Shown piece after piece: positions 17,990-29,635 of a stretch of DNA of 64,000 bases. A program made the translations under genes and the position numbers. Positions within the stretch are counted from its first letter, which is position 1; each line of letters opens with the position of its first letter. The notes under the pieces were generated by a model that saw nothing but the letters and a program-made list of their open reading frames with translations, had not been told where the DNA came from and did no database searches. The stretch comes from Massilia oculi (GTDB taxonomy: Bacteria > Pseudomonadota > Gammaproteobacteria > Burkholderiales > Burkholderiaceae_D): positions 4,278,001 to 4,342,000 of the forward strand of contig NZ_CP029343.1 in the NCBI RefSeq assembly GCF_003143515.1, read 5' to 3'.

Positions 17990-18012
17990 AAGAGGCATAA
18001 CGTTTGCATCTT
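17990..18012 (+). promoter_or_regulatory. NsrR-type operator upstream of the hemerythrin-like gene
   Basis: An 11-1-11 palindrome: left arm AAGAGGCATAA, one base, right arm GTTTGCATCTT. Each arm matches the enterobacterial NsrR half-site (AAGATGCATTT) at 8 of 11 positions. It overlaps the -35 of the promoter at 18004-18032, as expected for repression. nsrR is the next gene but one. A nearly identical site lies at 28750-28772. Confidence 0.75.
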
Positions 18013-18032
18013 TAAGGGAATCGCATTACACT
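18004..18032 (+). promoter_or_regulatory. sigma-70 promoter of the hemerythrin-like gene
   Basis: TTGCAT (18004-18009), 17 bp, TACACT (18027-18032). The -35 is inside the right arm of the NsrR-type palindrome. The leader to the ATG at 18078 is about 40 nt and holds a GAAGGAAG ribosome-binding site. Confidence 0.65.
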
Positions 18033-18077
18033 TGGTTAACTGCTGAGCACAAGCCTCGGTACACGAAGGAAGCGATC

Positions 18078-18497
18078 ATGAACATCGACAGATTCAAGCA
18101 TCAGCACCTCGACATCCTCGACGGCATCGACCGCCTGCGCGCCCGCAGCCGGGAGGGCGTGGCCGAGCACGCGGAAGAGATCGCCGCGCAGATCGTCGCG
18201 ATGAGCGGCGTGGTGCGGCTGCACCTGGCGGTTGAGAACGACACCCTGTATCCGGCGCTGGCCAGGGGCGACCTGCGCCTGGCGCGCATGGGCCGGGCCT
18301 ACCAGAACGAGATGGGCGACATCGCCGCCGAGTACCTGGCGTTCGCCGGGCGCTGGAACCTGGCCAGCCGGCTGGTCAAGGCGCCGGAACAGTTCAGGCA
18401 AGAGGCGAATCGGGTGCTGCGCAAGCTGCACGGGCGCATCCGGCGCGAGGACCGGGAGTTCTATCCGGCGATCGAGGCCGGCGCCGTCGCCGCCTGA
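18078..18497 (+). CDS. Hemerythrin HHE domain protein, NsrR-regulated
   Basis: A 139-residue four-helix protein resembling hemerythrin-like domains. Candidate diiron ligands are H8 or H10 (KHQH), H49 and E53 (RLHLAVENDTLYP), H115 and the late EFYPAIE. Proteins of this type under NsrR control (YtfE/DnrN relatives) act in nitric oxide defence or iron-sulfur repair. This one lacks the N-terminal ScdA domain of YtfE, so it is a single-domain member whose exact role is open. The operator at 17990-18012 and the convergent nsrR support a nitrosative-stress role. Confidence 0.78.
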   Translation: MNIDRFKHQHLDILDGIDRLRARSREGVAEHAEEIAAQIVAMSGVVRLHLAVENDTLYPALARGDLRLARMGRAYQNEMGDIAAEYLAFAGRWNLASRLVKAPEQFRQEANRVLRKLHGRIRREDREFYPAIEAGAVAA

Positions 18498-18510
18498 AGG
18501 CTCAGGCGGC
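18489..18510. terminator. Hairpin formed by two convergent stop codons (hemerythrin-like / nsrR)
   Basis: A perfect 9-bp inverted repeat (GCCGCCTGA at 18489-18497, complement at 18502-18510) with a 4-nt loop. Each arm is the last Ala-Ala-stop of one of the two convergent genes. It could act as a short bidirectional terminator; there is no T-tract. Confidence 0.5.
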
Positions 18511-18951
18511 CTTGCGCCGGTGCACCGTGACCGGCACGTCGCGCGGACGCGGCTCGGGCAGCAGGGAAGCGAGGGTGTGGCGGTCGAGTTCGGCCAGATA
18601 GGCGGCGGTGGCATTGCCCAGGACGCCCTTCAGGCCGCAAGCCTTGACCAGGCCGCAGGGCGCGCCATTGGGGTCGAAGCACTCGGCCATGTAGAAGTCG
18701 CTTTCGCTCATGCGCACGATGGCGCCGACATTGATGTCCTTCGGATCGTGTGCCAGGCGGAAACCGCCGTTGCGGCCACGAATGGTTTCGATCGTGCCGT
18801 TACGTGCGAGCTCGTTCACCACCTTCATCAGGTGGTTCTTAGAAATATTGTGCAGGTCTGCGATCTCCTGGATCGTCACCAGGCGACCGGGGTTGCTGCC
18901 CAGGTGCAGCAGCGTGCGCAACGTGTAATCGGTGAAGGAGGTCAGACGCAT
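18502..18951 (-). CDS. nsrR: Nitric oxide-sensing repressor NsrR (Rrf2 family)
   Basis: A 149-residue Rrf2 winged-helix regulator that begins MRLTSFTDYTLRTLLHLG, as NsrR proteins do. The cluster-binding cysteines are C91, C99 and C105 in the order seen in NsrR (CFDPNGAPC, then ACGLKGVL). In the family, NO reacts with the Fe-S cluster and releases DNA, inducing NO-detoxification genes. Two matching operators lie in this window (17990 and 28750). ATG at 18951 is only 9 bp after a TATACT -10, so the mRNA would be nearly leaderless. Confidence 0.92.
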   Translation of the reverse strand: MRLTSFTDYTLRTLLHLGSNPGRLVTIQEIADLHNISKNHLMKVVNELARNGTIETIRGRNGGFRLAHDPKDINVGAIVRMSESDFYMAECFDPNGAPCGLVKACGLKGVLGNATAAYLAELDRHTLASLLPEPRPRDVPVTVHRRKAA

Positions 18952-18960
18952 GATCGCCCA

Positions 18961-18966
18961 AGTATA
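18961..18966 (-). promoter_or_regulatory. -10 element (TATACT) of nsrR
   Basis: TATACT on the minus strand ends 9 bp before the nsrR ATG, so the transcript would start only 2-4 nt upstream of the start codon. No convincing -35 or NsrR palindrome accompanies it. Confidence 0.4.
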
Positions 18967-19041
18967 ACGCATCCGACTCAATGCCGACCGGGGACCGGCC
19001 GGCGCAATTTTTACATGTATTAACTTGCCGGACTTGACTTG

Positions 19042-19059
19042 TCGTTCCAATATGAACGA
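19042..19059. promoter_or_regulatory. Perfect inverted repeat upstream of the LuxR-type regulator
   Basis: TCGTTC, 6 bp (CAATAT), GAACGA. It lies 40 bp before the ATG at 19100, just after a TTGACT hexamer (19034-19039). It is a candidate operator of the regulator or of a neighbour; no known consensus was recognised. Confidence 0.35.
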
Positions 19060-19099
19060 ACGGGTAGCGAGCCCGACGCAGCCAAACCAGGAGTACACC

Positions 19100-19726
19100 A
19101 TGCCTACCATTCCATCCGCCGTTCATATCATCCACACCGATCCGGTGATGACCGCCGGCCTGCACGCCATCCTCGCCGACCGCCCCGAATGGCGCGTCAG
19201 CACCCACCTGGGCCAGCCTGAGGCGCGGCAGGTGGCGCGGGTGCTGGTCGCCGACTACGACACCGGCCTCGCGCTGGCGCGCCAGCCCGAGCATGCGGGC
19301 CTGCGCCGACCCAGTGTCCTGATCGTCACCCAGCTCGACAAGGAATGGGAAGTGCGCCTCGCGATGGACGCGGGCGTGCATGGCTACGTGCTGCAGTCGT
19401 GCAGCCAGGACGAGCTGCTCAGGGCGGTCGCCTCGCTGGCCCAGGGCCAGCGCTACCTGAGCGAATCGGTGACGCGCAGCGTGGCCGATAGTCTCAGCCG
19501 CGAGAACCTGACCGGCCGCGAGACCGACGTGCTGCAATTGCTGGCCGAAGGCTGCTGCAACAAATCGATCGCCCGCAAGCTGGGCATCGGCGTCGGCACC
19601 GTCAAGACCCATGTGAAAGGCGTGATGAGCAAGCTCGACGCCACCGCGCGCACCCACGCGGTGGTGGTCGCCACCCAGCGCGGCCTGATCCGTCCCGGCA
19701 GCGGCATCCGCAGCGCGTATAACTGA
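19100..19726 (+). CDS. LuxR/FixJ family response regulator with atypical receiver
   Basis: A 208-residue protein with a receiver-like domain (about 7-120) and a LuxR-type HTH (about 136-198: LTGRETDVLQLLAEGCCNKSIARKLGIGVGTVKTHVKGVMSKL, in short blocks). The phosphoacceptor region (VADYD, D52 or D54) is kept. The N-terminal acidic pair is reduced to one Asp (D14) and the conserved Lys of the KP/KD loop is Gln99, so phosphorylation-dependent switching may be altered. ATG at 19100 follows an AGGAG. No partner kinase is adjacent. It diverges from nsrR and converges on the oxidase operon. Confidence 0.82.
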   Translation: MPTIPSAVHIIHTDPVMTAGLHAILADRPEWRVSTHLGQPEARQVARVLVADYDTGLALARQPEHAGLRRPSVLIVTQLDKEWEVRLAMDAGVHGYVLQSCSQDELLRAVASLAQGQRYLSESVTRSVADSLSRENLTGRETDVLQLLAEGCCNKSIARKLGIGVGTVKTHVKGVMSKLDATARTHAVVVATQRGLIRPGSGIRSAYN

Positions 19727-19727
19727 G

Positions 19728-19763
19728 CAGTCCCGCTGAGTCAGTCCCGCTGAGTCAGTCCCG
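19728..19763. repeat. 14-bp tandem repeat, about 2.6 copies
   Basis: The unit CAGTCCCGCTGAGT occurs at 19728-19741 and 19742-19755, followed by a partial copy (CAGTCCCG) to 19763. It fills the space between the response regulator stop and the convergent CtaG-like gene, and its last copy encodes the end of that protein, including the stop codon. It looks like a recent slippage duplication. Confidence 0.8.
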
Positions 19764-20336
19764 GATGCGGCCGCTCCCTGGCGGCCGCTCCGGCTGGTCG
19801 GCGACATGGCGTGCGTTGACGCCGCACCAGGCCACGCCCAGCAGCAGCGCCAGCGTCACGAGGGCGGTGCCGGTGACGGTCTGGTCGTCCAGCAGGTAGG
19901 CGTTGCACAGGCGCTGCGGCAGTTCGCGGTACAGCATGCCGGCGATCGCCATCATGGCGCAGATATTGGCGACAAAGAACAGCTGGACCACCACGTGGGC
20001 CCGGCGCAGGGCGCCCGGCAAGGCGGCGCCGAGCAGCAGCAGGCTGGCGAACTTGGCGCCGGCCGCGAGCGGCTCGAACAAGGCCTGTTCCAGCGCCTGC
20101 GGGATCATCCAGTAGGTGGTAATGAAGGCGGCCGCGGTGAAGGTCGCCAGTCCATGCGCGTCCCAGCGCGCCAGTCCCGCCGGCAGGCTCAGCCAGGGCC
20201 GCAGCAGCGCGCCGCAGACCAGCAGCAGCGGCAGTTGCACCAGCATGTGGCGCAGCATCGACGCCTCGAGCGGCGCGCGGGTGGCCAGCAACATTCCCAG
20301 CAGCGCGGGGCCGCTCCAGCGCATCAGGCGCGCCAT
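19755..20336 (-). CDS. CtaG-like (caa3-type) oxidase assembly membrane protein
   Basis: A 193-residue membrane protein with about five helices. It resembles the CtaG/caa3 family of oxidase assembly factors in the SMLRHMLVQLPLLLV segment near the N-terminus (about 26-40) and the late DDQTVTG (family: DQ-x-x-G) before the last helix. The family is implicated in copper delivery to the CuB site of haem-copper oxidases. It is the last gene of the oxidase operon, 3 bp after the SCO gene, which supports an assembly role. Family assignment is from motif resemblance only. Confidence 0.6.
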   Translation of the reverse strand: MARLMRWSGPALLGMLLATRAPLEASMLRHMLVQLPLLLVCGALLRPWLSLPAGLARWDAHGLATFTAAAFITTYWMIPQALEQALFEPLAAGAKFASLLLLGAALPGALRRAHVVVQLFFVANICAMMAIAGMLYRELPQRLCNAYLLDDQTVTGTALVTLALLLGVAWCGVNARHVADQPERPPGSGRIRD

Positions 20337-20339
20337 CGC

Positions 20340-20984
20340 CTACGTCCTTTCCATGGCTCGTGCCAGCGCGTCGTCGAGCGCCGTGCCGGGCTCCGTATAG
20401 TCGAGGATGCGCACCAGGCGCCCGTCGCGGCCGACCACGTGGAAGGCCGCATTGTGCTCGAACTCGCCCAGCGGCGCCGGCACCACGACCACGCCGAAGG
20501 CGTCGAGCAGGCGGCGCCGTTCGGATTCGACCGGTATCCCGTACAGGCGCCACACGTCCGGATCGCTGTTCATCATGCGGCCGTACCGGGTCAGCGCGCG
20601 GGCATCGTCGCGCGGATCGAAGCTGATCGTCACCAGGCGCACCTTGTCCGCCGCGCCGCGTGCGCGGATCTGCTCCTGCATCTGCTGCAGTTCGCTGCCC
20701 ACCACGCGGCAGATCGACTGGCAGCGCGCATAGATGAAGGTGACCAGGGCGATGCGGCCGTCGCGGGCCAGTTCGTCGGCGAGCGGGCGCGCGGTGCCGT
20801 CGGCGCCGCTCAGGGTCGCCGGCGGCAGCCGCAGCGGACGTTCGGCCACCTCGATGCGGCGCGCGGCCTCGGTCGAGATCGCGCGAAAGCCACTGCTGCC
20901 GTGGTACAGGGCGCCGCTGCCGGCAATCAGCACGGCCAGCACGGCAAGCAGGGTTGCCCGGCTACTTGAAAGAGGCGAGTTCAT
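20340..20984 (-). CDS. SCO1/SenC family copper chaperone
   Basis: A 214-residue protein with an N-terminal membrane anchor or signal (about 10-28) and a thioredoxin-like SCO domain. The copper site is visible: C88-x3-C92 (CQSIC) and a distal His in AAFHVVGRDG. SCO proteins deliver copper to, or reduce thiols of, the CuA or CuB site of terminal oxidases. The neighbouring oxidase has no CuA subunit, so the target would be CuB of the CcoN-like protein. The start overlaps the preceding cytochrome gene by 23 bp. Confidence 0.85.
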   Translation of the reverse strand: MNSPLSSSRATLLAVLAVLIAGSGALYHGSSGFRAISTEAARRIEVAERPLRLPPATLSGADGTARPLADELARDGRIALVTFIYARCQSICRVVGSELQQMQEQIRARGAADKVRLVTISFDPRDDARALTRYGRMMNSDPDVWRLYGIPVESERRRLLDAFGVVVVPAPLGEFEHNAAFHVVGRDGRLVRILDYTEPGTALDDALARAMERT

Positions 20985-21564
20985 CGTCGCCCTTCCACGG
21001 CGCCGTGCGATCGGCGCTGGCGCTGCGCGCATCAAGCACCAGTTTGGCGTCGACGGCTTGGGCGCGGTTGCCGAACTGGCTGCGGATATGGGTCAGCAGG
21101 GCGGCCAGTTCGGCGTCGTCCAGCTTGTCCTTGAAGGACGGCATCATGCCGTTGTAGGCGGCGCCTTTCACCGTCAGGGGGCCGGAGACGCCGTGCAGCA
21201 CGATCTGCGCCAGGCGTTTCGGATCGCCCGTCACCCATTCCGATTCCGCCAGCGGAGGGAACACGCCGGCCAGGCCCAGGCCGCTGGCCTGGTGGCAGGC
21301 CACGCACTGGGCGTTGTAGATCTGTGCGCCGTCGACCCTGGCGCCCGGCGCCGGCCCCTGCAGGGTGGCCAGGGTGCGGTGGTCGCCGAAGGCGGCGTCG
21401 TCGTTGCTCTGGGTGACGTAGATATAGCCGATGCCCCAGGCCACCAGGCCGATCACCACGGCCATCAGCGGTTGCGGGAACGGGCGCTCGCCTTCGGTCG
21501 GATCCGGGTTCTCGCGGCGCTGGGCGCGTTCGTGGTCGACCTGCCGTTGCTGTTGCTCGTTCAT
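20962..21564 (-). CDS. Membrane-anchored monohaem cytochrome c (CcoP-like position)
   Basis: A 200-residue protein with a cytoplasmic N-terminus, one membrane helix (about 33-50) and one class-I cytochrome c domain: CVACH haem site (C87, C90, H91) and probable Met ligand in YNGMMPSF (about 137-143). A true CcoP has two haem domains, so this is a reduced version. It probably passes electrons to the CcoO-like subunit. ATG at 21564 overlaps the ccoO-like stop by 4 bp. Confidence 0.85.
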   Translation of the reverse strand: MNEQQQRQVDHERAQRRENPDPTEGERPFPQPLMAVVIGLVAWGIGYIYVTQSNDDAAFGDHRTLATLQGPAPGARVDGAQIYNAQCVACHQASGLGLAGVFPPLAESEWVTGDPKRLAQIVLHGVSGPLTVKGAAYNGMMPSFKDKLDDAELAALLTHIRSQFGNRAQAVDAKLVLDARSASADRTAPWKGDDELASFK

Positions 21565-22163
21565 TTGCGCTCCCGCTGCGTACCCAGGGTCTCGACCGCC
21601 GGATAGGTGTGATCCAGGCCCACCAGGTAGGCCACCAGGTCGAGCGCCTCCTGGCGCGCCACCACCACCTTGCCGGCCGGCGTATAGCCGCGCGGCAGCG
21701 TCACCACCCGGTCGCCTTCGTCCGCCTTGTCCTTGACCTCGAACAGGTAGGGATAGGCCGGCATGATCGAGCCTGCGACGTAGGCGCGCGGCTGGTACAG
21801 GTGGCCCAGATGCCAGTCGACGCTGGGCTGGCGCGCGCCGATGTTGAACAGGTCGGGCCCGGTGCGCATGGTGCCCAGCAGGTGCGGCTTGTCGTAGTGG
21901 TAGTCGGCCGCCACCGAGGCGCGGCCCCAGCCGCGCTTGTCGTCCGGCGCCTGTACGGGATCGCGCGGCTGCTGCGAGTGGCAATAGATGCAGCCGTTGG
22001 CAATGTACACCTGGCGTCCGCGCAGCTCGGCCGAGGAATAGGGCTTGAGTCCCGGCGGCGGTTCGCCGTCCTTGAGCTGCATGTGCGGCACCACCACCAG
22101 CGCCGATGTCGCCAGCGCCAGCGTCACCATCGCGCCGCCCAGCAGTTTGAGTTCGTCTTGCAT
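21561..22163 (-). CDS. CcoO-like monohaem cytochrome c subunit
   Basis: A 200-residue CcoO/FixO-type subunit: N-terminal membrane anchor (about 7-27) and a haem c site CIYCH (58-62) in the CcoO context (NGCIYCHSQQPRDP). The later GPDLFNIGARQ and DWHLGHLYQPR blocks and the MPAYPYL motif with the axial Met also match CcoO. It would transfer electrons to the CcoN-like catalytic subunit, whose gene ends 10 bp upstream. Confidence 0.88.
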   Translation of the reverse strand: MQDELKLLGGAMVTLALATSALVVVPHMQLKDGEPPPGLKPYSSAELRGRQVYIANGCIYCHSQQPRDPVQAPDDKRGWGRASVAADYHYDKPHLLGTMRTGPDLFNIGARQPSVDWHLGHLYQPRAYVAGSIMPAYPYLFEVKDKADEGDRVVTLPRGYTPAGKVVVARQEALDLVAYLVGLDHTYPAVETLGTQRERK

Positions 22164-22173
22164 GATCTTCCTT

Positions 22174-23832
22174 TCAGGCGGCCTCGGGTACCGTCGTGGC
22201 CTTGAGCGGTTCGTTCAGCAGCGCCGCGCCCTCGCGCGCCACGCCGCGGCGGGTCGCCATCAGCACGAAGTGGATCGCGAACACCAGGTGGCCGAGTGCC
22301 ATGATGGCGCCGCCCACCGAGCGGCTCTTGAGCCAGGGGATGGTCACGCCCACCGAATCCATGAACGGCTTCGCCGCGTCCAGCATGGCCAGGCCCTGCA
22401 GCCAGCCGCCGATCGACAGGCCGACGAAATAGATGCCAAAACCGACCACCACCAGCCAGAAGTGCATCGAGATCAGGTTCGGATACGGCCACTCCCAGTC
22501 CATCACGCGCGGCATCACGAAGTACACCGCGCCGAACATCACGAGGGTGAAGAAGCCGTACAGGCCGAGGTGGGCGTGGGCCACCGTGAAGTGGGTGAAG
22601 TGCGCCACCGTGTTCACGCTGCGCAGCGCTTCGATCGAACCCTGGATGGAACTCAGGGTGTACATCATCCCGCCCAGCACGATGAAGCGCAGCGTGGGCG
22701 AATCCCACAGGCGCCTGAAGTGGCCCTTCATGGTCAGGTGCTGGTTGATCGAGAACGCCAGCACCGGCACGATCATCATCACGCTCTGCACGATCGACAG
22801 CGTGATCAGCCAGCCCGGCACCGGGCCGCCGATCAGGTGGTGGCCGCCGACCTGGCCGTAGAAGAAGGCCAGCGACCAGAAGCCTACCAGCGACAGGTTG
22901 TACGACTGGATCGGGCGGCCGATGATCTTCGGCAGGAAGTAATACACGCAGGCCAGCGCCATCGGCGTGTAGAACAGGCCCAGTACGTTGTGCCCGAACC
23001 ACCAGTTCATGGCCGCCTGCTGCACGCCGAAGTGCATCGCCGGCAGGTTACCGACCAGGAACAGGGTGGGGAACCAGAACAGCGCCGCGCCCATGTACCA
23101 GACCGACACGTACAGGTGGCGCACGGTGCGCGCCTGCAGCGTGTAGACCAGCGGCAGGCCGACCAGGGCGCCGCCGACCACGAACAGGATGTCGACCTGC
23201 CACGGGATCTCGAGCCACTCCATGCCGTCGGACAGGCCTACCGCGATGCAGCCCAGGCCCGCGATCAGGCCCGCATTCCACACCATGGCGCCGGCGATCG
23301 CGTAGCGCGCGCCGACCAGCGGCGTCTTGAGCAGGCGTGGCAGCAGCCACATCGCCAGCCCCAGCGCCGCCATCGGCGCCCAGCCATAGGCCACCGCGTT
23401 CAGGTGGATGGTGCGCATGCGCCCGAAGGTGAGCCAGGCCTGGTTGACCAGCAGGTCGGGCTCGTGCAATTTGATGGAGCTGAGCAGGCCTGCGGCAGTC
23501 GCCACCAGCAGCCACACGACGGCGCAGGCCAGGAACAGGAAGGTCACGAGCGAGCTGGAACGGTCGGCTTCGACCCGCGCCTGCAATTCCGCGTTCAACT
23601 GCCGCGCCTCGTCCTCGGTAAGGGGCGGCGCGGCGTCGTGCGCGGCCTGGGCGGCGGCTTGTCCCGGCGTGGCGGCGGGGTCGTCGCTGCGGCCGATCTC
23701 GCCTTCCGAGAAGATGGTGCGGGCCGCGGCGGGGCTGGCCTCGAACAGGCGGTTGCGCAGCGACCAGATGAAGATCGCCAATCCCGTCACCGAAAGGATG
23801 AACGAGGACAGCAGGATGGTCATGGTATTCAT
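22174..23832 (-). CDS. C-family (cbb3-like) haem-copper oxidase catalytic subunit with CcoS-like N-terminus
   Basis: A 552-residue CcoN-like protein. Low-spin haem ligand H143 (RTIHLNA); CuB and haem b3 ligands H281 (FGHN), H331-H332 (GGHH), H411, H419 and H421 (VAHAH). The helix-VII Tyr that crosslinks to a CuB His in cbb3 oxidases is present (Y325), favouring oxygen reduction. The active-site Glu of cbb3 enzymes (FEG) is Gln397 (IQG). Residues 1-48 form an extra helix plus a W-x2-R-x3-F pattern resembling CcoS, followed by a 40-residue linker. ATG at 23832 is chosen; an upstream TTG lies in the promoter region. It heads a five-gene operon. Confidence 0.85.
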   Translation of the reverse strand: MNTMTILLSSFILSVTGLAIFIWSLRNRLFEASPAAARTIFSEGEIGRSDDPAATPGQAAAQAAHDAAPPLTEDEARQLNAELQARVEADRSSSLVTFLFLACAVVWLLVATAAGLLSSIKLHEPDLLVNQAWLTFGRMRTIHLNAVAYGWAPMAALGLAMWLLPRLLKTPLVGARYAIAGAMVWNAGLIAGLGCIAVGLSDGMEWLEIPWQVDILFVVGGALVGLPLVYTLQARTVRHLYVSVWYMGAALFWFPTLFLVGNLPAMHFGVQQAAMNWWFGHNVLGLFYTPMALACVYYFLPKIIGRPIQSYNLSLVGFWSLAFFYGQVGGHHLIGGPVPGWLITLSIVQSVMMIVPVLAFSINQHLTMKGHFRRLWDSPTLRFIVLGGMMYTLSSIQGSIEALRSVNTVAHFTHFTVAHAHLGLYGFFTLVMFGAVYFVMPRVMDWEWPYPNLISMHFWLVVVGFGIYFVGLSIGGWLQGLAMLDAAKPFMDSVGVTIPWLKSRSVGGAIMALGHLVFAIHFVLMATRRGVAREGAALLNEPLKATTVPEAA

Positions 23833-23886
23833 GGCGGGTCCGGGCGAAGGAAGGTCGGCCCTGGCGGGAATGCGCAGGCCTTTGAA

Positions 23887-23927
23887 AAGATGCTTCAAAG
23901 ATACGAAATAGGAACGGGGCGCGGCAA
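23887..23927 (-). promoter_or_regulatory. Promoter of the oxidase operon with a partial NsrR-like motif
   Basis: On the minus strand TTGCCG (23927-23922), 18 bp, TATCTT (23903-23898). Overlapping it, plus-strand 23887-23897 matches the NsrR left arm at 8 of 11 (AAGATGC then TTCA), while the other arm matches only about 5 of 11. The motif AAAGATRC also occurs twice as a direct repeat, 11 bp apart. Both promoter and operator are tentative. Confidence 0.35.
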
Positions 23928-23973
23928 TACGCCTTTGGGTAGAGCGGCGCGCGCCGCCCCCGTGTGCCCTGGA

Positions 23974-25410
23974 TTAAGGGAGAGGCGCGTCCATCGCCTG
24001 CGCCACCCGCCGCGCCAGTTCTTCGGCCTGGGCGGCGCTGGCGACGTTGGCGAAGTTCAGCAGGAGCGCGCTGCGCGTGGGCGTGCCGGCATGGAAATCG
24101 GCCAGCGCCAGCGGCGCCAGGCCGTGCTCGCGCAGGCGCGCGGCGAGCAGGCGGTCGGCGCCCGGCGCGACTGCGGCCACCAGGTGCAGGCCGCCGGCCT
24201 GGGGCAGGATCGTGGCGCGCGCGCCGAACGCCGGGGCCAGCGCGCGCGCCGTGAGCTCGCAACGCTCGCCGTACAGGCGGCGCATGGCCTGGACGTGGCG
24301 CACGAAATGGCCGTCCTGCATGAACTCGCACAGGATGGACTGGGTGAGCGCCGGGCAGCCGTTGCCGAGCAGGCTGGCGGCGTCCTCGAAGCGCTCCACC
24401 AGCTCCGGCGGCACCACCACATAGGACAGGCGCAGCCCCGGGAACATCACCTTGCTGAAGCTGCCGCTATAGATCACGCGGCCGGCGCGGTCCATGCTGG
24501 CCAGGGCCGGCAGCGGACGCCCGCTGTGGCGGAACTCGCCGTCGTAGTCGTCCTCGACGATCCAGGCATCGTGGGCGCCGGCCCAGTCCAGGAGCGCCTG
24601 GCGCCGCGCCGGCGGCATGCTGACCGTGAGCGGGCATTGGTGGCCCGGGGTGACCACCGCCATGCGCGCGCCAGGCGCCAGCAGCGCGGCGCGCGCCACG
24701 TCCAGGCCGTGCTCGTCGACCGGGGCCGGACGCGGCACGTAGCCCAGGCCCGCCAGCAGGTGGCGGGTGGGCGGAAAGCCCGGCTCCTCGGCCCACACCA
24801 TGTCGCCCGGCGTGAGCAGGGCGTGCGTGACCAGGCCCAAGGCCTCGCGGTAGCCGGCGCTGACGAATACCTGGCACGGCATGCAGTCGATCCCGCGCGC
24901 GAGCTTGAGGTAGCTGGCGATCGCGGTGCGCAGGGCGGGCGCGCCGAAGCTCGATTCCTTCAGCAGGTTGCGCGTCTGCAGCGAACGCGCGGTGCGCGCG
25001 GCCATGCGCGCCCACACCTTGCGCGGAAAGGCGTCCAGCGCCGGCAATCCCATCTGGAACGGCAGCGGCGCGACGGCGCCGCCGACGTCCAGCGGCAGCG
25101 GGCGGGCGCGCGGCGCCACCTTGGCGCGCGCCGGCGGCCCATGCGGCGCGCTGCGGCGCGCGACCACCGAGCCGGCCGCGCCGCGCACCTCCAGGTAGCC
25201 TTCGGCCGACAGTAGCGCGTAGGCGGCGGCCACGGTGCCGCGCGCCAGCCCGAGTTCCTCGGCCAGCACGCGGGTCGCGGGGATGCGGTCGCCGGCCTTC
25301 AGCACGCCGGTGTCGACCGCTTCGCGCACGCGGGCGTGGATCTGGCGGTACAGCGGAACAGGGCTGCTGGTGTCGAATCTCAGGTAGTCGCTGACGGACA
25401 GGTCTTGCAT
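23974..25410 (-). CDS. MocR/PdxR-type GntR regulator with aminotransferase domain
   Basis: A 478-residue MocR protein: GntR winged helix (about 15-80: PLYRQIHARVREAV, IPATRVLAEELGLARGTV) fused to a fold-type I aminotransferase-like domain. The PLP-binding Asp and Tyr (EDDYDGEFR) and the Schiff-base Lys (SGSFSKVMFPG) are present. Such regulators sense PLP or amino compounds and often control vitamin B6, taurine or GABA genes; no such gene is adjacent. A TTGGACTTA motif like the TauR half-site lies upstream at 25445. The start at 25410 has GGAGG 12 bp upstream. Confidence 0.88.
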   Translation of the reverse strand: MQDLSVSDYLRFDTSSPVPLYRQIHARVREAVDTGVLKAGDRIPATRVLAEELGLARGTVAAAYALLSAEGYLEVRGAAGSVVARRSAPHGPPARAKVAPRARPLPLDVGGAVAPLPFQMGLPALDAFPRKVWARMAARTARSLQTRNLLKESSFGAPALRTAIASYLKLARGIDCMPCQVFVSAGYREALGLVTHALLTPGDMVWAEEPGFPPTRHLLAGLGYVPRPAPVDEHGLDVARAALLAPGARMAVVTPGHQCPLTVSMPPARRQALLDWAGAHDAWIVEDDYDGEFRHSGRPLPALASMDRAGRVIYSGSFSKVMFPGLRLSYVVVPPELVERFEDAASLLGNGCPALTQSILCEFMQDGHFVRHVQAMRRLYGERCELTARALAPAFGARATILPQAGGLHLVAAVAPGADRLLAARLREHGLAPLALADFHAGTPTRSALLLNFANVASAAQAEELARRVAQAMDAPLP

Positions 25411-25444
25411 GTGCTTGCGTATCCTCCTTTGGTCGATTATGCAC

Positions 25445-25453
25445 TTGGACTTA
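25445..25453 (+). promoter_or_regulatory. Candidate MocR/TauR-like half-site
   Basis: TTGGACTTA resembles the TauR-type direct-repeat unit CTGGACTTAA and lies 35 bp upstream of the mocR start. Other TTGG or GGTC/CCAAG words occur in the same 100 bp, but no clean second copy was found. Confidence 0.25.
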
Positions 25454-25650
25454 TCGTCACGGAAGCGATGACTGGGCCAAGAACGGTTTGGCTCAGCGTC
25501 AAATGCAGATCTTGGTCCAGGACGCGGGTAGCGCCCCATGCGACTTCGCATCGGCGCCGCGATGGACCCAGCCATTGGCCCGATCTTGGCTCTTTATCCA
25601 GCGCGCGTTCGGCGCGACGATGGCAGTCCCTCATCCATGATGGAGCAGCC

Positions 25651-26223
25651 ATGCAGATTTCTTCCAGCCTGTCGTCGGCGCTGTCGTCGTCGCTGTCGTC
25701 GGCGATGCCCCGCGTCGCGGGTGCGAAGCCGTCGGCCAGCCAGGTCCCGTTCGCGATCGCCCGGGCGCGCGCCGACTCGGCCGAAGACCGGCGCCGCCTC
25801 GAAGAGAACGCGGCGCGCCATGCCGATGCGATCGCCGGTTTCGCCGCCAAGGGCATGACCCTGACCCAGGGGTCGTACACCATGCTGTACAAGCAGGAGG
25901 CGGCGAAGTCGATCGATACCGACGGCGACGGCATCATCGGCATCGACGAACTGGCGAGCGGGCTTGGCGGCAATGAAAGCATGGAGCGCGCCAGGCAGCT
26001 TCATTCCTTGCTCGACGTCGATGGTGACGGCCGTATCGGGCTGGACGAATTCGGCGACAGCGTGCGCGACCCGTTCCGCGACGCGGATTTTCGCCGCCAG
26101 CTCGAACAGCGCGGCGCCATGGACCCGGCCGCGATCGGCGCGCTGCACCGGCGCCAAGCGGCGCAGTACGACGCCGCGGCGGTGCTGGGGGCGATGGCGC
26201 GCGCGATCGATACCGCGGCATGA
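25651..26223 (+). CDS. Two-EF-hand calcium-binding protein
   Basis: A 190-residue protein without a signal peptide. Two canonical EF-hand loops are visible: 89-100 (DTDGDGIIGIDE) and 122-133 (DVDGDGRIGLDE), each with Asp at 1, 3 and 5 and Glu at 12, so both should bind calcium. The N-terminus is a low-complexity Ser/Leu/Ala repeat (about 3-19). The rest is mostly helical and unknown. It may be a cytoplasmic calcium sensor or buffer. ATG at 25651 follows GGAG; it diverges from mocR. Confidence 0.82.
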   Translation: MQISSSLSSALSSSLSSAMPRVAGAKPSASQVPFAIARARADSAEDRRRLEENAARHADAIAGFAAKGMTLTQGSYTMLYKQEAAKSIDTDGDGIIGIDELASGLGGNESMERARQLHSLLDVDGDGRIGLDEFGDSVRDPFRDADFRRQLEQRGAMDPAAIGALHRRQAAQYDAAAVLGAMARAIDTAA

Positions 26224-26263
26224 TCAATGGTGCCCCCAAGCCGCGTCATGCAGGAGAACGACA

Positions 26264-26587
26264 GTGAACACAGGTTGGCGCATCGGACCATGCGTGCTGT
26301 TTCCGCGCCGGCGCCGGCTGGAAGCCGGTGGGCGCGAAGTGGCGCTGGGCTCGCGCGCCTTCGACCTGCTGGTGTGCCTGATACGGCGCGCCGGCGAGGT
26401 GGTGGGCAAGGATGAACTGCTGCGCCAGGTGTGGCCGGGCCTGGTGGTGGAAGAAGCGAACGTGCGCGTGCACGTCTCGAACCTGCGCAAGGCGCTGGGC
26501 GCGGTGGCGCCCGATGCCGGCGCCTGGATCGTCAACGTGCCGCTGCGCGGCTATATGTTCCGCGGTCCGATCGAACGGATTTTGACC
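26264..26587 (+). pseudogene. OmpR-type winged-helix gene, truncated against the HD/LuxR gene
   Basis: Starts GTG at 26264 with a good AGGAG 7 bp upstream. Residues 1-105 are a complete Trans_reg_C winged helix (GSRAFDLLVCLIRRAG, KDELLRQVWPGLVVEEANVRVHVSNLRKALG, then VNVPLRGYMF). The frame has no stop here. It runs on past 26587 antisense through the convergent HD/LuxR gene to 28081, where the translation is meaningless. In relatives this domain usually heads a long ATPase or TPR regulator. The natural reading is a gene whose 3' part was deleted at about 26580; a stand-alone wHTH protein with a long junk tail cannot be excluded. The end given is where recognisable sequence stops. Confidence 0.55.
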
Positions 26588-28111
26588 TCAGATCAGGCCG
26601 AGGGTCAGGGCCTTGAGGGTGGCGGCGGCGCGGGTCGAGCAATCGAGCTTGCGGAAGATGCTCTCGACGTGGGTGCGCACGGTGCTGGGGCTGATGCGCA
26701 TGGCGCGCGCGGCCTCCTTGTTGCTCTCTCCGAGGCTGATGCGCTGCAAGACCTCGGCTTCGCGCGCCGACAGCGTGGCGCGCACCGGCGCGCCGGCGGC
26801 GCCGTTCGCGCCATTCGAACCATTGCCTGGCGCCGCGTGAACGCCGGTCGCCGCGGCCAGCACGGCGTCCACCGTGGCGCGGTCGAAGCGGCCGCCCGTC
26901 ACCTGGGCCTCGAGCAGGGCGCGGGCCGCCTCCGGCTCGTGGGCCGCGCGCCATGGCCGCGGCGAGCGCAGCGCCGCCCAGGCGGCGGCCGCGCCCAGCA
27001 GGCGCTGCGGCGCCCCGAGGGCGCCCGCGTCCAGGCTGCGGAAATACCCGCTGCCGTCGAGCCGCTCGTAGACGTGCGAAGCCAGTTGCGCATCCGGCCC
27101 CAGGCCGTCGATGCGGCTGCCGGCGCGCGCGGTCCAGTAGGGCACCAGGCGCACCGCTTCCCAGTCGGCGGCGCCCAATCTGCCGTTGCGTTCCCATACC
27201 GTGTTGGTCACCGCCGCGCGCCCGATCCCGTGCAGCAGGGCCGCCCTTGCCAGGGCGCGCTGCTGCGCATCAGGCAGGCCCGCCAGCCGCGCCGCTTCCT
27301 GCGCCAGCAGCGCGACGCGGCGCGAATAGCCGGCCAGCCAGGGCAGTTTCAGTTCGATCATGTCGGCCACCAGGGTGAGCGGCACGGATACCGGAAGAAA
27401 ATCCGGTGGCGGCGATGGCGTTTCGGCGGCCTCCAGCTCGTCGAGCCAGGCGCGCGCGTGCGGCGCCACGAGCGCCACCAGGCGCGCCGGATACTTGACG
27501 TCGCCCAGCTGCGCGATCATCTCCAGCGCGCGCTCGATGCCATGCACGCGCGCCAGGATCTCGAGATCTCCGCCAAGCACCGCGTGGTACACCACGGTTG
27601 GCACTTCGTCGCCGCGCAGGTGGAGCGGGAGGCCGCTGCCGTCATAATGCTCCCACACGTGGCGCAAGCCGCTTTCGACCGCGGCCGGCAATCCCATCAT
27701 GGCGGCGATGTCGCCCGCGACTTCGCAGTGGACTTCGGCCAGCTCGGTGGTGTCGCGCAGGCGCGCCGTCTGCTGGGCATTGAGGGTGCGGCTCACCAGC
27801 GCATGGCGCGCGCCGACGTCGTCGCCCATCATCGCGGCGAAGCCGGCCGCGTTGGCGGTGCAGCCCGACCAGCGCAGCAGCGCCACCATGCGCGCATGCC
27901 CGCACGCCGCGGCATTGGCGCCGGCCGCGGCGGCCACGCGCGCCGCCAGGCGCGCGGCGCGTTCCGAACCGTCGATCGGCTGGCCCATGCTCAGGTCGCC
28001 GACGATGGCGAGCAGTCCCATCGCCTGGGACAGGGTGGCGGTGTCGTGGCCGTGCAGGCAGGCCGCGGGAAGCGACAGTGAAGAAGAAGTTTCGCGCGCG
28101 GCCGTGTCCAT
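26588..28111 (-). CDS. Degenerate HD-GYP-like protein with C-terminal LuxR HTH
   Basis: A 507-residue protein with two HD-GYP-like regions (HYDGSGLPLHLRGDEVP at about 155-172; ALLHGIGRAAV and ERLDGSGYF at about 291-357) and a LuxR-type HTH (about 445-505: LSAREAEVLQRISLGESNKEAARAMRISPSTVRTHVESIFRKL, in short blocks). The catalytic HD pair is His294-Gly295, and the GYP is GYF, so c-di-GMP hydrolysis is unlikely and a binding role is possible. There are no membrane segments. It sits 10 bp after the AhpD-like gene but is probably transcribed with it (same strand). Confidence 0.78.
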   Translation of the reverse strand: MDTAARETSSSLSLPAACLHGHDTATLSQAMGLLAIVGDLSMGQPIDGSERAARLAARVAAAAGANAAACGHARMVALLRWSGCTANAAGFAAMMGDDVGARHALVSRTLNAQQTARLRDTTELAEVHCEVAGDIAAMMGLPAAVESGLRHVWEHYDGSGLPLHLRGDEVPTVVYHAVLGGDLEILARVHGIERALEMIAQLGDVKYPARLVALVAPHARAWLDELEAAETPSPPPDFLPVSVPLTLVADMIELKLPWLAGYSRRVALLAQEAARLAGLPDAQQRALARAALLHGIGRAAVTNTVWERNGRLGAADWEAVRLVPYWTARAGSRIDGLGPDAQLASHVYERLDGSGYFRSLDAGALGAPQRLLGAAAAWAALRSPRPWRAAHEPEAARALLEAQVTGGRFDRATVDAVLAAATGVHAAPGNGSNGANGAAGAPVRATLSAREAEVLQRISLGESNKEAARAMRISPSTVRTHVESIFRKLDCSTRAAATLKALTLGLI

Positions 28112-28121
28112 CGATCGTCGT

Positions 28122-28580
28122 TTACATGCCCGGGGCGGGATGCACCGGGATCTGGTTGCGCAGACTCAGGTTGATGACGTTCCAACCACGAATCGCTGCG
28201 ATAGTATAGCCAAGTTCGGCGATCTCGTTCTCGCTGAAATGCTCGCGCAGGGCAGGCCATGCGGCGTCGGTATCGTCGCGGTGCGGCAGCGCATTGACGG
28301 CGTCGGCCCAGGCCAGGGCGGCGCGTTCGCGCTCGCTGAAGAACGGCGATTCGCGCCATGCGGCCAGGGAGTTCAGATGGCGTGGGTCAAGACCCTGCTT
28401 GATCAGGTCGCGCCAGTGCATGTCGATGCAGACCCCGCAGCCATTGACTTGCGAGACGCGCAGCTGCACCAGCTCGAACAGGCGTTCGCCGATCGAGCTC
28501 TGGCGGTTGGTCATCGACAGGTTGACCATGGCTTTCAGGTTGGCGGGGGCCAGGGTGAACAGGTTCAGACGTGCGGACAT
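28122..28580 (-). CDS. AhpD-like / carboxymuconolactone decarboxylase family protein
   Basis: A 152-residue CMD-family protein with the redox CxxC-x3-H motif (CGVCIDMHW) typical of AhpD-like alkylhydroperoxidases. It probably acts as a peroxidase or disulfide reductase rather than a decarboxylase. ATG at 28580 follows AAGGAA. It diverges from the SDR gene; the NsrR-type operator at 28750 lies in the shared 242-bp region, though much nearer the SDR gene. It precedes the HD/LuxR gene by 10 bp. Confidence 0.85.
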   Translation of the reverse strand: MSARLNLFTLAPANLKAMVNLSMTNRQSSIGERLFELVQLRVSQVNGCGVCIDMHWRDLIKQGLDPRHLNSLAAWRESPFFSERERAALAWADAVNALPHRDDTDAAWPALREHFSENEIAELGYTIAAIRGWNVINLSLRNQIPVHPAPGM

Positions 28581-28749
28581 GATGTGTTCCTTTCAGGTGG
28601 CGAGGGCGCACTGTGCGGCCTTCTTGCCGATAAGACGAGCCAGCATGCGCGGCTGTGACATGGAACGCGCTTTTTTTTCGAGGCTCTCCCATCCGGAAGA
28701 GACGCCCTTCAGGCCCTGCCGATGTCGCATGCCGGGCTCCCTCCGATTA

Positions 28750-28772
28750 AAGAGGCATCGTTATTGCATCTT
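28750..28772 (+). promoter_or_regulatory. NsrR-type operator upstream of the SDR gene
   Basis: An 11-1-11 palindrome: left arm AAGAGGCATCG, one base, right arm TATTGCATCTT. It has the same core (AAAGAGGCAT, 7 bp, TGCATCTTTAA) as the site at 17990-18012 and the same position relative to its promoter. Confidence 0.72.
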
Positions 28773-28792
28773 TAAATGCGGCTGGCTAGACT
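28764..28792 (+). promoter_or_regulatory. sigma-70 promoter of the SDR gene
   Basis: TTGCAT (28764-28769), 17 bp, TAGACT (28787-28792), followed by TTG. Spacing and -35 are identical to the hemerythrin-like gene promoter, and the -35 is inside the NsrR-type palindrome. Confidence 0.62.
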
Positions 28793-28822: not shown

Positions 28823-29635
28823 ATGACGCAAGCAAACAAGGGAACCGCCGTCATTACCGGCGCATCGACGGGCATGGGCGCGGTGTATGCCGACCGCCTG
28901 GCGCGCCAGGGCTACGACCTGGTGCTGATCGCGCGCGACGAAGAGCGCCTGGGACGCGTGGCGAGCCTGGTGCGCGCCGCCACCGAACGCAAGGTCGAAG
29001 TGCTGGCCGCCGACCTGGTCGATCCGCAGGCGCTGCGCCGCGTCGAAGCGCTGCTGCGCGTGCGCGCCGACGTCACGCTGATGGTGAACAACGCCGGCAT
29101 CGGTTCGGTCGCGCCGCTGCACGGCGACGACGTCGATGCGATGGAGCGGATGATCGCGCTGAACGTCACCGCGCCGACCCGCCTGACCTACGCGGTGGCG
29201 CCGGGCATGGCGGCGCGCGGCGCAGGCGCCATCGTCAACGTGTCGTCGATCGTCGCGATCGCGACCGAGATGATGAATGGGGTGTACGGCGCCAGCAAAT
29301 CCTATGTGCTGGCGTTTACCCAGGCGCTGCAGCACGAGTTCGGCGCCAAGGGCCTGCGCATCCAGGCGGTGCTGCCAGGCGTGACCGCCACCGGTTTCTG
29401 GGACACGCTGGGCCATCCCCTGGAGCGCCTGCCGGCCGGGGTCATCATGAGCGTGGACGACCTGGTCGACGCCGCGCTGGCGGGCCTGGCGCAGGGCGAG
29501 CGGGTCACCATCCCGGGCCTGCATGATGGAGAAAAATGGACTGCCCACGATGCGGCGCGGCGCGAGCTGGCAGGGCTGTTCGGCAATGCCGCGCCGGCGC
29601 CACGCTACGCCGTGCCGGCGCGGCAGGCCGCCTGA
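28823..29635 (+). CDS. SDR family NAD(P)-dependent oxidoreductase, NsrR-type promoter
   Basis: A 270-residue short-chain dehydrogenase. Rossmann motif TGASTGMG (about 13-20), NNAG (about 91-94), catalytic Ser in NVSSIV and YGASK (Tyr-x3-Lys). The coenzyme is probably NADP, judged from the Arg-rich end of strand 2 (ARDEERLGR). The substrate is unknown. The NsrR-type operator suggests it is induced by nitric oxide, perhaps to reduce a toxic carbonyl. An AAAGGGA ribosome-binding site precedes the ATG. Confidence 0.85.
   Translation: MTQANKGTAVITGASTGMGAVYADRLARQGYDLVLIARDEERLGRVASLVRAATERKVEVLAADLVDPQALRRVEALLRVRADVTLMVNNAGIGSVAPLHGDDVDAMERMIALNVTAPTRLTYAVAPGMAARGAGAIVNVSSIVAIATEMMNGVYGASKSYVLAFTQALQHEFGAKGLRIQAVLPGVTATGFWDTLGHPLERLPAGVIMSVDDLVDAALAGLAQGERVTIPGLHDGEKWTAHDAARRELAGLFGNAAPAPRYAVPARQAA

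Follow-up and report, generated by a model that had tools for sequence, protein, structure and literature searches.

In the window analysed here, a stretch of 64,000 nucleotides (64 kb) of the Massilia oculi genome (NZ_CP029343.1, positions 4,278,001–4,342,000), two near-identical 23-bp palindromes lie in front of a gene for a hemerythrin-like protein and a gene for a short-chain dehydrogenase/reductase (SDR), and by sequence criteria both palindromes are NsrR-type operators. We consider it probable that the Rrf2-family protein encoded in the same window represses both genes through these sites, that nitric oxide (NO) induces the two together with Hmp and NnrS, and that the SDR is a lineage-specific recruit to this response.

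Two NsrR-type operators in the window

Operator 1, an imperfect palindrome (AAGAGGCATAACGTTTGCATCTT; 17990–18012, plus strand), lies upstream of the hemerythrin-like gene, and operator 2 (AAGAGGCATCGTTATTGCATCTT; 28750–28772, plus strand) lies upstream of the SDR gene. The arms AAAGAGGCAT and TGCATCTTTAA are separated by 6 bp in both. Each site overlaps a putative sigma70-type promoter on the plus strand (18004–18032 and 28764–28792), in which a −35 box, TTGCAT, within the right arm (18004–18009 and 28764–28769) is followed after 17 bp by the −10 box TACACT (18027–18032) or TAGACT (28787–28792); the two promoters are 10,760 bp apart. A preliminary description of this DNA had claimed a palindrome common to both promoters together with these −35 boxes, spacers and −10 boxes, all of which we read as claimed. 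Two of its details need correction: the arms were said to be 7 bp apart, and the 7-bp version of the pattern has no match genome-wide even at 3 mismatches; and the −10 boxes were said to be followed by TTG, where we read TG only (TGG, TGT).

Exact matches to AAGANGCATN6TGCATCTT in the 5.84-Mb genome are two in number, namely the two window sites. With up to 3 mismatches allowed, the window holds four pattern matches (two sites, each on two strands), against a mean of 0.26 over 100 shuffles, none of which reached four. The claimed resemblance of the arms to the NsrR half-site was supported by a matrix trained exclusively on hmp promoters (39 sites in 20 genus genomes other than that of the window), which ranked the window sites first (23.7) and second (22.4) in the 64 kb, the third position scoring 6.3. 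The maximum in 30 Markov windows was 16.7, and 11.7 Mb of Markov sequence contained a single position at or above 22.4. The consensus of this matrix, AAGATGCATTTAAAATGCATCTT, is identical to the Escherichia coli CFT073 ytfE site that is marked as NsrR-bound by chromatin immunoprecipitation sequencing in the data of PMC5320621, and it fits the NsrR site form gATGyAT-N5-ATrCATc as written in PMC1274295. One arm position departs from this consensus in both window sites alike, with G in place of T.

The SDR gene and its orthologues

The gene at 28823–29635 (plus strand) encodes a classical SDR oxidoreductase of 270 residues (Pfam PF00106, 142.3 bits) with the motifs TGxxxGxG, NNAG and YxxxK. It matches the solved structures 6zdz (residues 5–265, E 4.6e-61) and 4bmv (residues 8–263, E 5.2e-57), keeps the catalytic Tyr-x3-Lys and has an Arg after the second strand, a mark of the NADP(H) type; it probably acts as an NADPH-dependent reductase.

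Comparison of the promoters across Massilia, as the preliminary description had proposed, showed the SDR site to be kept at orthologues and nowhere else among the SDRs surveyed. At E 1e-60 we obtained 22 matches from 17 of the 62 genus genomes, comprising five orthologues (69–100% identity) and 17 others (46–60%). A clear site precedes four of the five orthologues and a degenerate one the fifth (G035; 12/16 arm positions, matched by 1/100 shuffles); in each of the five genomes the site begins 55–84 bp upstream of the aligned start, and none of the 17 other SDRs has one. Among the matches listed for 392 genomes drawn from the family, with six candidates scored per genome, only the five orthologues reach E 1e-100, and SDR relatives from Mesorhizobium, Rhizobium, Azospirillum, Sphingopyxis and Pararoseomonas (8 of 11 loci) are without the site. 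The orthologue sites score 33.2 (G033) and 32.1 (G054), as hmp sites do, then 22.4 in the genome of the window (G000), 19.4 (G035) and 17.1 (G005).

Around these sites the promoter is kept to varying degrees. G033 retains TTGCAT-17-TACACT upstream of the SDR despite unrelated flanking DNA; G005 and G035 carry the variants TTGCAC and TTGAAT with unchanged spacing; and in G054 no comparable −10 box was seen in the aligned promoters. In G054 (L035:8004–11476) the SDR gene is followed on the same strand, after 79 bp, by nsrR and by genes for a SnoaL-like protein, an Ada-type O6-methylguanine methyltransferase/regulator and an AhpD/CMD-like protein, with a divergent aldehyde dehydrogenase gene; in the other four genomes the SDR gene lies about 9–10 kb from nsrR. 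All five carry the Rrf2 clade of the window's regulator. Taken at the level of sequence, a lineage-specific SDR has most likely joined the NsrR regulon.

The Rrf2 regulator and the hmp sites

The regulator gene (18502–18951, minus strand) encodes an Rrf2-family protein of 149 residues (18505–18951). It scores 121 bits for PF02082 (cut-off 30) over residues 3–131 and, in an alignment of 137 residues, shares 40% identity and all three cluster cysteines with E. coli NsrR, in agreement with the earlier placing of an NsrR-like gene beside the hemerythrin gene. Cys91, Cys99 and Cys105 also align with 5n07, the Streptomyces NsrR, which is its best solved-structure match.

With the regulator as query, no other protein of its genome was found at E 1e-30, and of the six Rrf2 proteins there that pass the Pfam cut-off it matches NsrR best. 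The other five were considered as binders of the operators and rejected: one is IscR-like (205.6 bits, cut-off 207.55), another (L028) scores 77.8 bits for NsrR and its translation is without the three-cysteine pattern, and the three further proteins gave no NCBIfam match at E 1e-15.

The regulator's clade (at least 76% identity) is present in 25 of the 62 genus genomes, 24 of which have an hmp match. We examined hmp in 30 of the 58 matches across the genus, 21 from clade genomes and nine from others. Among the 21 clade genomes, 20 have an hmp site that outscores each of 50 shuffles, and the site of G024 ties with its shuffles.

The hemerythrin-like gene

The first putative target gene (18078–18497, plus strand) encodes a hemerythrin-like (HHE domain) protein of 139 residues (Pfam PF01814, 45.6 bits, cut-off 25.3). 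Homologues were found in 10 of the 62 genus genomes at E 1e-15, and seven of the ten promoters carry a clear site. The promoter layout, read by eye in eight aligned promoters, is the same in G005, G035, G027 and G021 (as TAAACT), and was not found in G001, G028 and G014.

RIC/YtfE carries an N-terminal ScdA-type domain ahead of the HHE domain; an identification of the window protein as RIC/YtfE was rejected, its one domain being PF01814 (residues 3–132 of 139). Where the ten homologues align, the invariant histidines are 10 and 49 only, and the iron ligand set usual for HHE domains therefore looks incomplete. In G010 (L075:7850–8155) the hemerythrin gene is nearly all deleted, and the operator and promoter persist before a short remnant.

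Extent of the predicted regulon

The preliminary description had seen in the twin promoters a local regulon, and this does not hold. In the window's genome hmp, about 0.92 Mb from the window, has two sites stronger than the window pair (32.7 and 32.1), and nnrS, about 1.4 Mb away (G000:C1:5696835–5697946), has one (25.6) that starts 38 bp before the likely start codon; a regulon confined to 10.8 kb is ruled out by these sites. The predicted regulon thus comprises at least hmp, nnrS and the hemerythrin and SDR genes, dispersed over the chromosome. The genome-wide list of sites is a lower bound, the relaxed pattern scan of the genome having missed the nnrS site. The Pfam match of NnrS is split over two neighbouring pieces (L195, L196), so that the nnrS frame may be broken or the sequence in error.

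In other genomes of the genus, assignable sites precede hmp, a norB-type NO reductase gene, nnrS, nsrR-like genes and the hemerythrin gene. The outcome that the preliminary description had named as telling against it, the palindrome at many promoters with no link to stress, was mostly not seen, with two exceptions. One is a one-mismatch match inside an FtsH-like coding sequence (G000:789529), which has near-identical matches, equated by letters only, in many genus genomes; the other is a site about 0.4 kb upstream of an RpoH-like gene in G001 (L083). A further match in the window's genome (G000:1995329) lies close to where a coding frame ends, and those at 2366424, 4906574 and 2783618 are known as sequence only. 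NsrR-type sites also occur at L077:9650 (G011, 30.3) and L078:9880 (G029, 28.1). Two sites in the genus precede small proteins that resemble truncated globins by eye and for which Pfam gave no match.

Genomic neighbourhood

An AhpD/CMD-like protein is encoded divergently from the SDR (28122–28580, minus strand; PF02627, 71.1 bits; TIGR00778 above cut-off), and each of the other four SDR genomes has a gene of this kind near its SDR gene. Between the hemerythrin and AhpD/CMD-like genes (19806–25982) we found plus-strand open reading frames of 387, 290 and 1056 codons and a minus-strand frame of 181 codons, all without a Pfam match; the frames are conserved in relatives and are regarded as putative genes only. 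The block (12041–35347) is set among the flagellar genes FliF, FliK and FliD. In G059 an 18-kb stretch (L189) retains the LysR, Rrf2, LuxR, HD-LuxR and PilZ genes and gave no match to the hemerythrin, the frames of 19806–25982, the AhpD/CMD-like protein or the SDR. The genes without a counterpart in G059 appear to be an accessory block.

Discussion

We suggest that NsrR with an intact iron–sulfur cluster would bind both operators over the −35 box and so block RNA polymerase, and that NO, by destroying or modifying the cluster, would cause the repressor to leave, whereupon the hemerythrin-like protein and the SDR would be made alongside Hmp and NnrS. The SDR would then probably clear an electrophile that nitrosative stress produces; whether this is a carbonyl or, as for human CBR1, an S-nitrosothiol is a guess. 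NsrR binding, release by NO and joint induction are what we infer from the sites, their overlap with the promoters, their conservation, their likeness to those of hmp and the homology of the regulator.

Several observations weigh against this interpretation. The regulator scores below the NCBIfam cut-offs both for NsrR (118.1 bits, cut-off 182) and for RirA (117.4 bits, cut-off 193), and NCBIfam does not separate the two for this protein; since the scores are below cut-off and nearly equal, the name NsrR rests on operators and context, and we regard the protein as NsrR-like and not as a certified equivalog. Upstream of the window's regulator gene itself the scan found no site. At the hemerythrin gene there is no site in two of the ten genomes (G056 and G019) and a weak one in G014 (11/16 arm positions, matched by 5/100 shuffles); no Rrf2 match was found in G056 at E 1e-30, and in G019 the hemerythrin match starts at residue 12, the DNA before it being without a site. 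Four of the five SDR orthologues lie in syntenic surroundings and do not count as independent cases. The site type is moreover not peculiar to the regulator's clade: hmp sites were above all shuffles in six of the nine loci examined from genomes outside it, two of these six belonging to genomes (G037 and G016) that have no regulator match at E 1e-30. In G020, moreover, the Rrf2 protein that adjoins an NsrR-type site (7958) near hmp is another one (L087:7438–7923), unlike that of the window. Because of these outside-clade sites and the G020 protein, the site type would belong to NsrR at large, and NsrR-like proteins of more than one clade seem to occur in the genus. Finally, the window sites score 22–24, against a median of 32.0 for the hmp training sites, with yet lower values at the SDR genes of the nearest relatives (G035 and G005), so that repression may be loose.

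Carried further, this last point leads to the alternative of an SDR operator in decay: in the lineage of the window it would no longer give useful NO control, and the SDR would be made roughly constitutively. The fall in SDR site scores from those of G033 and G054 to those of G000, G035 and G005 would fit such a decay, as would the loss of the hemerythrin gene in G010 while its promoter persists. We nevertheless think it unlikely, given that, of the four changes between the 23-mers of G000 and G005, three are central and a single one affects an arm, that the classical target nnrS scores just 25.6 in the same genome, and that the promoter boxes and their spacing are retained.

The Rrf2 protein could, alternatively, be a redox or iron sensor of the RsrR or RirA kind, with the SDR in an NAD(P)H or redox regulon. 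The near-equal NCBIfam scores speak for it, and so does the numbering of Cys91, Cys99 and Cys105, which is that of RirA. RsrR, moreover, was first named as an NsrR homologue and has NAD(P)-linked targets according to PMC5015018. However, NsrR-type hmp sites are carried by nearly all clade genomes examined (20/21), an nnrS site is present in the window's genome, and the best solved-structure match of the regulator is to NsrR; class 1 sites of RsrR are, in the same source, built as 11-3-11, as against 11-1-11 here. On balance we hold a redox or iron sensor to be quite improbable. That operator 2 serves the divergent AhpD/CMD-like gene, with the SDR as a bystander, is very improbable: the site does sit between the two genes, with the AhpD/CMD-like start about 170 bp off and the gene near the SDR in the other four genomes as well, but the orientation of the −35 and −10 boxes points to the SDR, and the site keeps its place before the SDR in all five genomes even where the AhpD/CMD-like gene is about 2 kb off (G033) or downstream of the SDR (G054).

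The feature pointed out in the preliminary description is genuine, and the regulator that it proposed is the likeliest one. The surprise would be modest, in that a known regulon gains a lineage-specific SDR. With an NsrR-type site at its orthologues and at none of the 17 other SDRs, this classical SDR would point to a step of the NO response that is linked to NADPH. It is conceivable, if decidedly unlikely, that the SDR works specifically against nitrosative stress, for example as an NADPH-dependent S-nitrosothiol or nitroso-compound reductase of SDR type, placed under NsrR by one Massilia lineage and, in a single genome, in a run of genes with nsrR, an Ada-type DNA repair gene and an AhpD-like gene; should it indeed act on a nitroso compound, the interest of the finding would grow. 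In the open-access full-text literature we found nothing that links the NsrR regulon with a short-chain dehydrogenase/SDR, and nothing on NsrR in Massilia.

As for known enzymes, the window SDR matches the SyADH-like short-chain alcohol dehydrogenases (6zdz, 4bmv) over nearly its full length, with the catalytic Tyr and Lys kept; 4bmv is SyADH itself, a Sphingobium enzyme for bulky ketones, and such enzymes have no known link with NO. Human CBR1, which the window SDR resembles in its membership of the SDR family, has been reported as an S-nitrosoglutathione reductase (Bateman 2008, as cited in PMC8224097 and PMC5418329). Hemerythrin-like genes are under NsrR repression in several bacteria, as described in PMC9268430; from RIC/YtfE/DnrN the window protein differs in its length of 139 residues and in having the HHE domain alone. 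Among regulators, RsrR of Streptomyces venezuelae is likewise an Rrf2 protein tied to the gene of an NAD(P)-binding protein, the NmrA-type sven6562, and differs, in the account of PMC5015018, in its 11-3-11 sites, in redox sensing by a [2Fe-2S] cluster and in having as its partner a regulator rather than an SDR enzyme. The regulon that NsrR controls in beta- and gammaproteobacteria (hmp, nnrS, hcp, dnrN/ytfE, norB and nirK) has a small known core, and most of its targets remove NO or repair iron–sulfur centres (PMC1274295). The 23-bp window sites have the spacing of its gATGyAT-N5-ATrCATc sites (PMC1274295), its regulator is likewise an Rrf2 protein whose three cysteines align with those found here, and the window's genome has sites at two of its genes, hmp and nnrS. 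It differs in that no SDR gene is among the targets named for it in the sources used here, and the window sites depart from its consensus by a G for T at one arm position.

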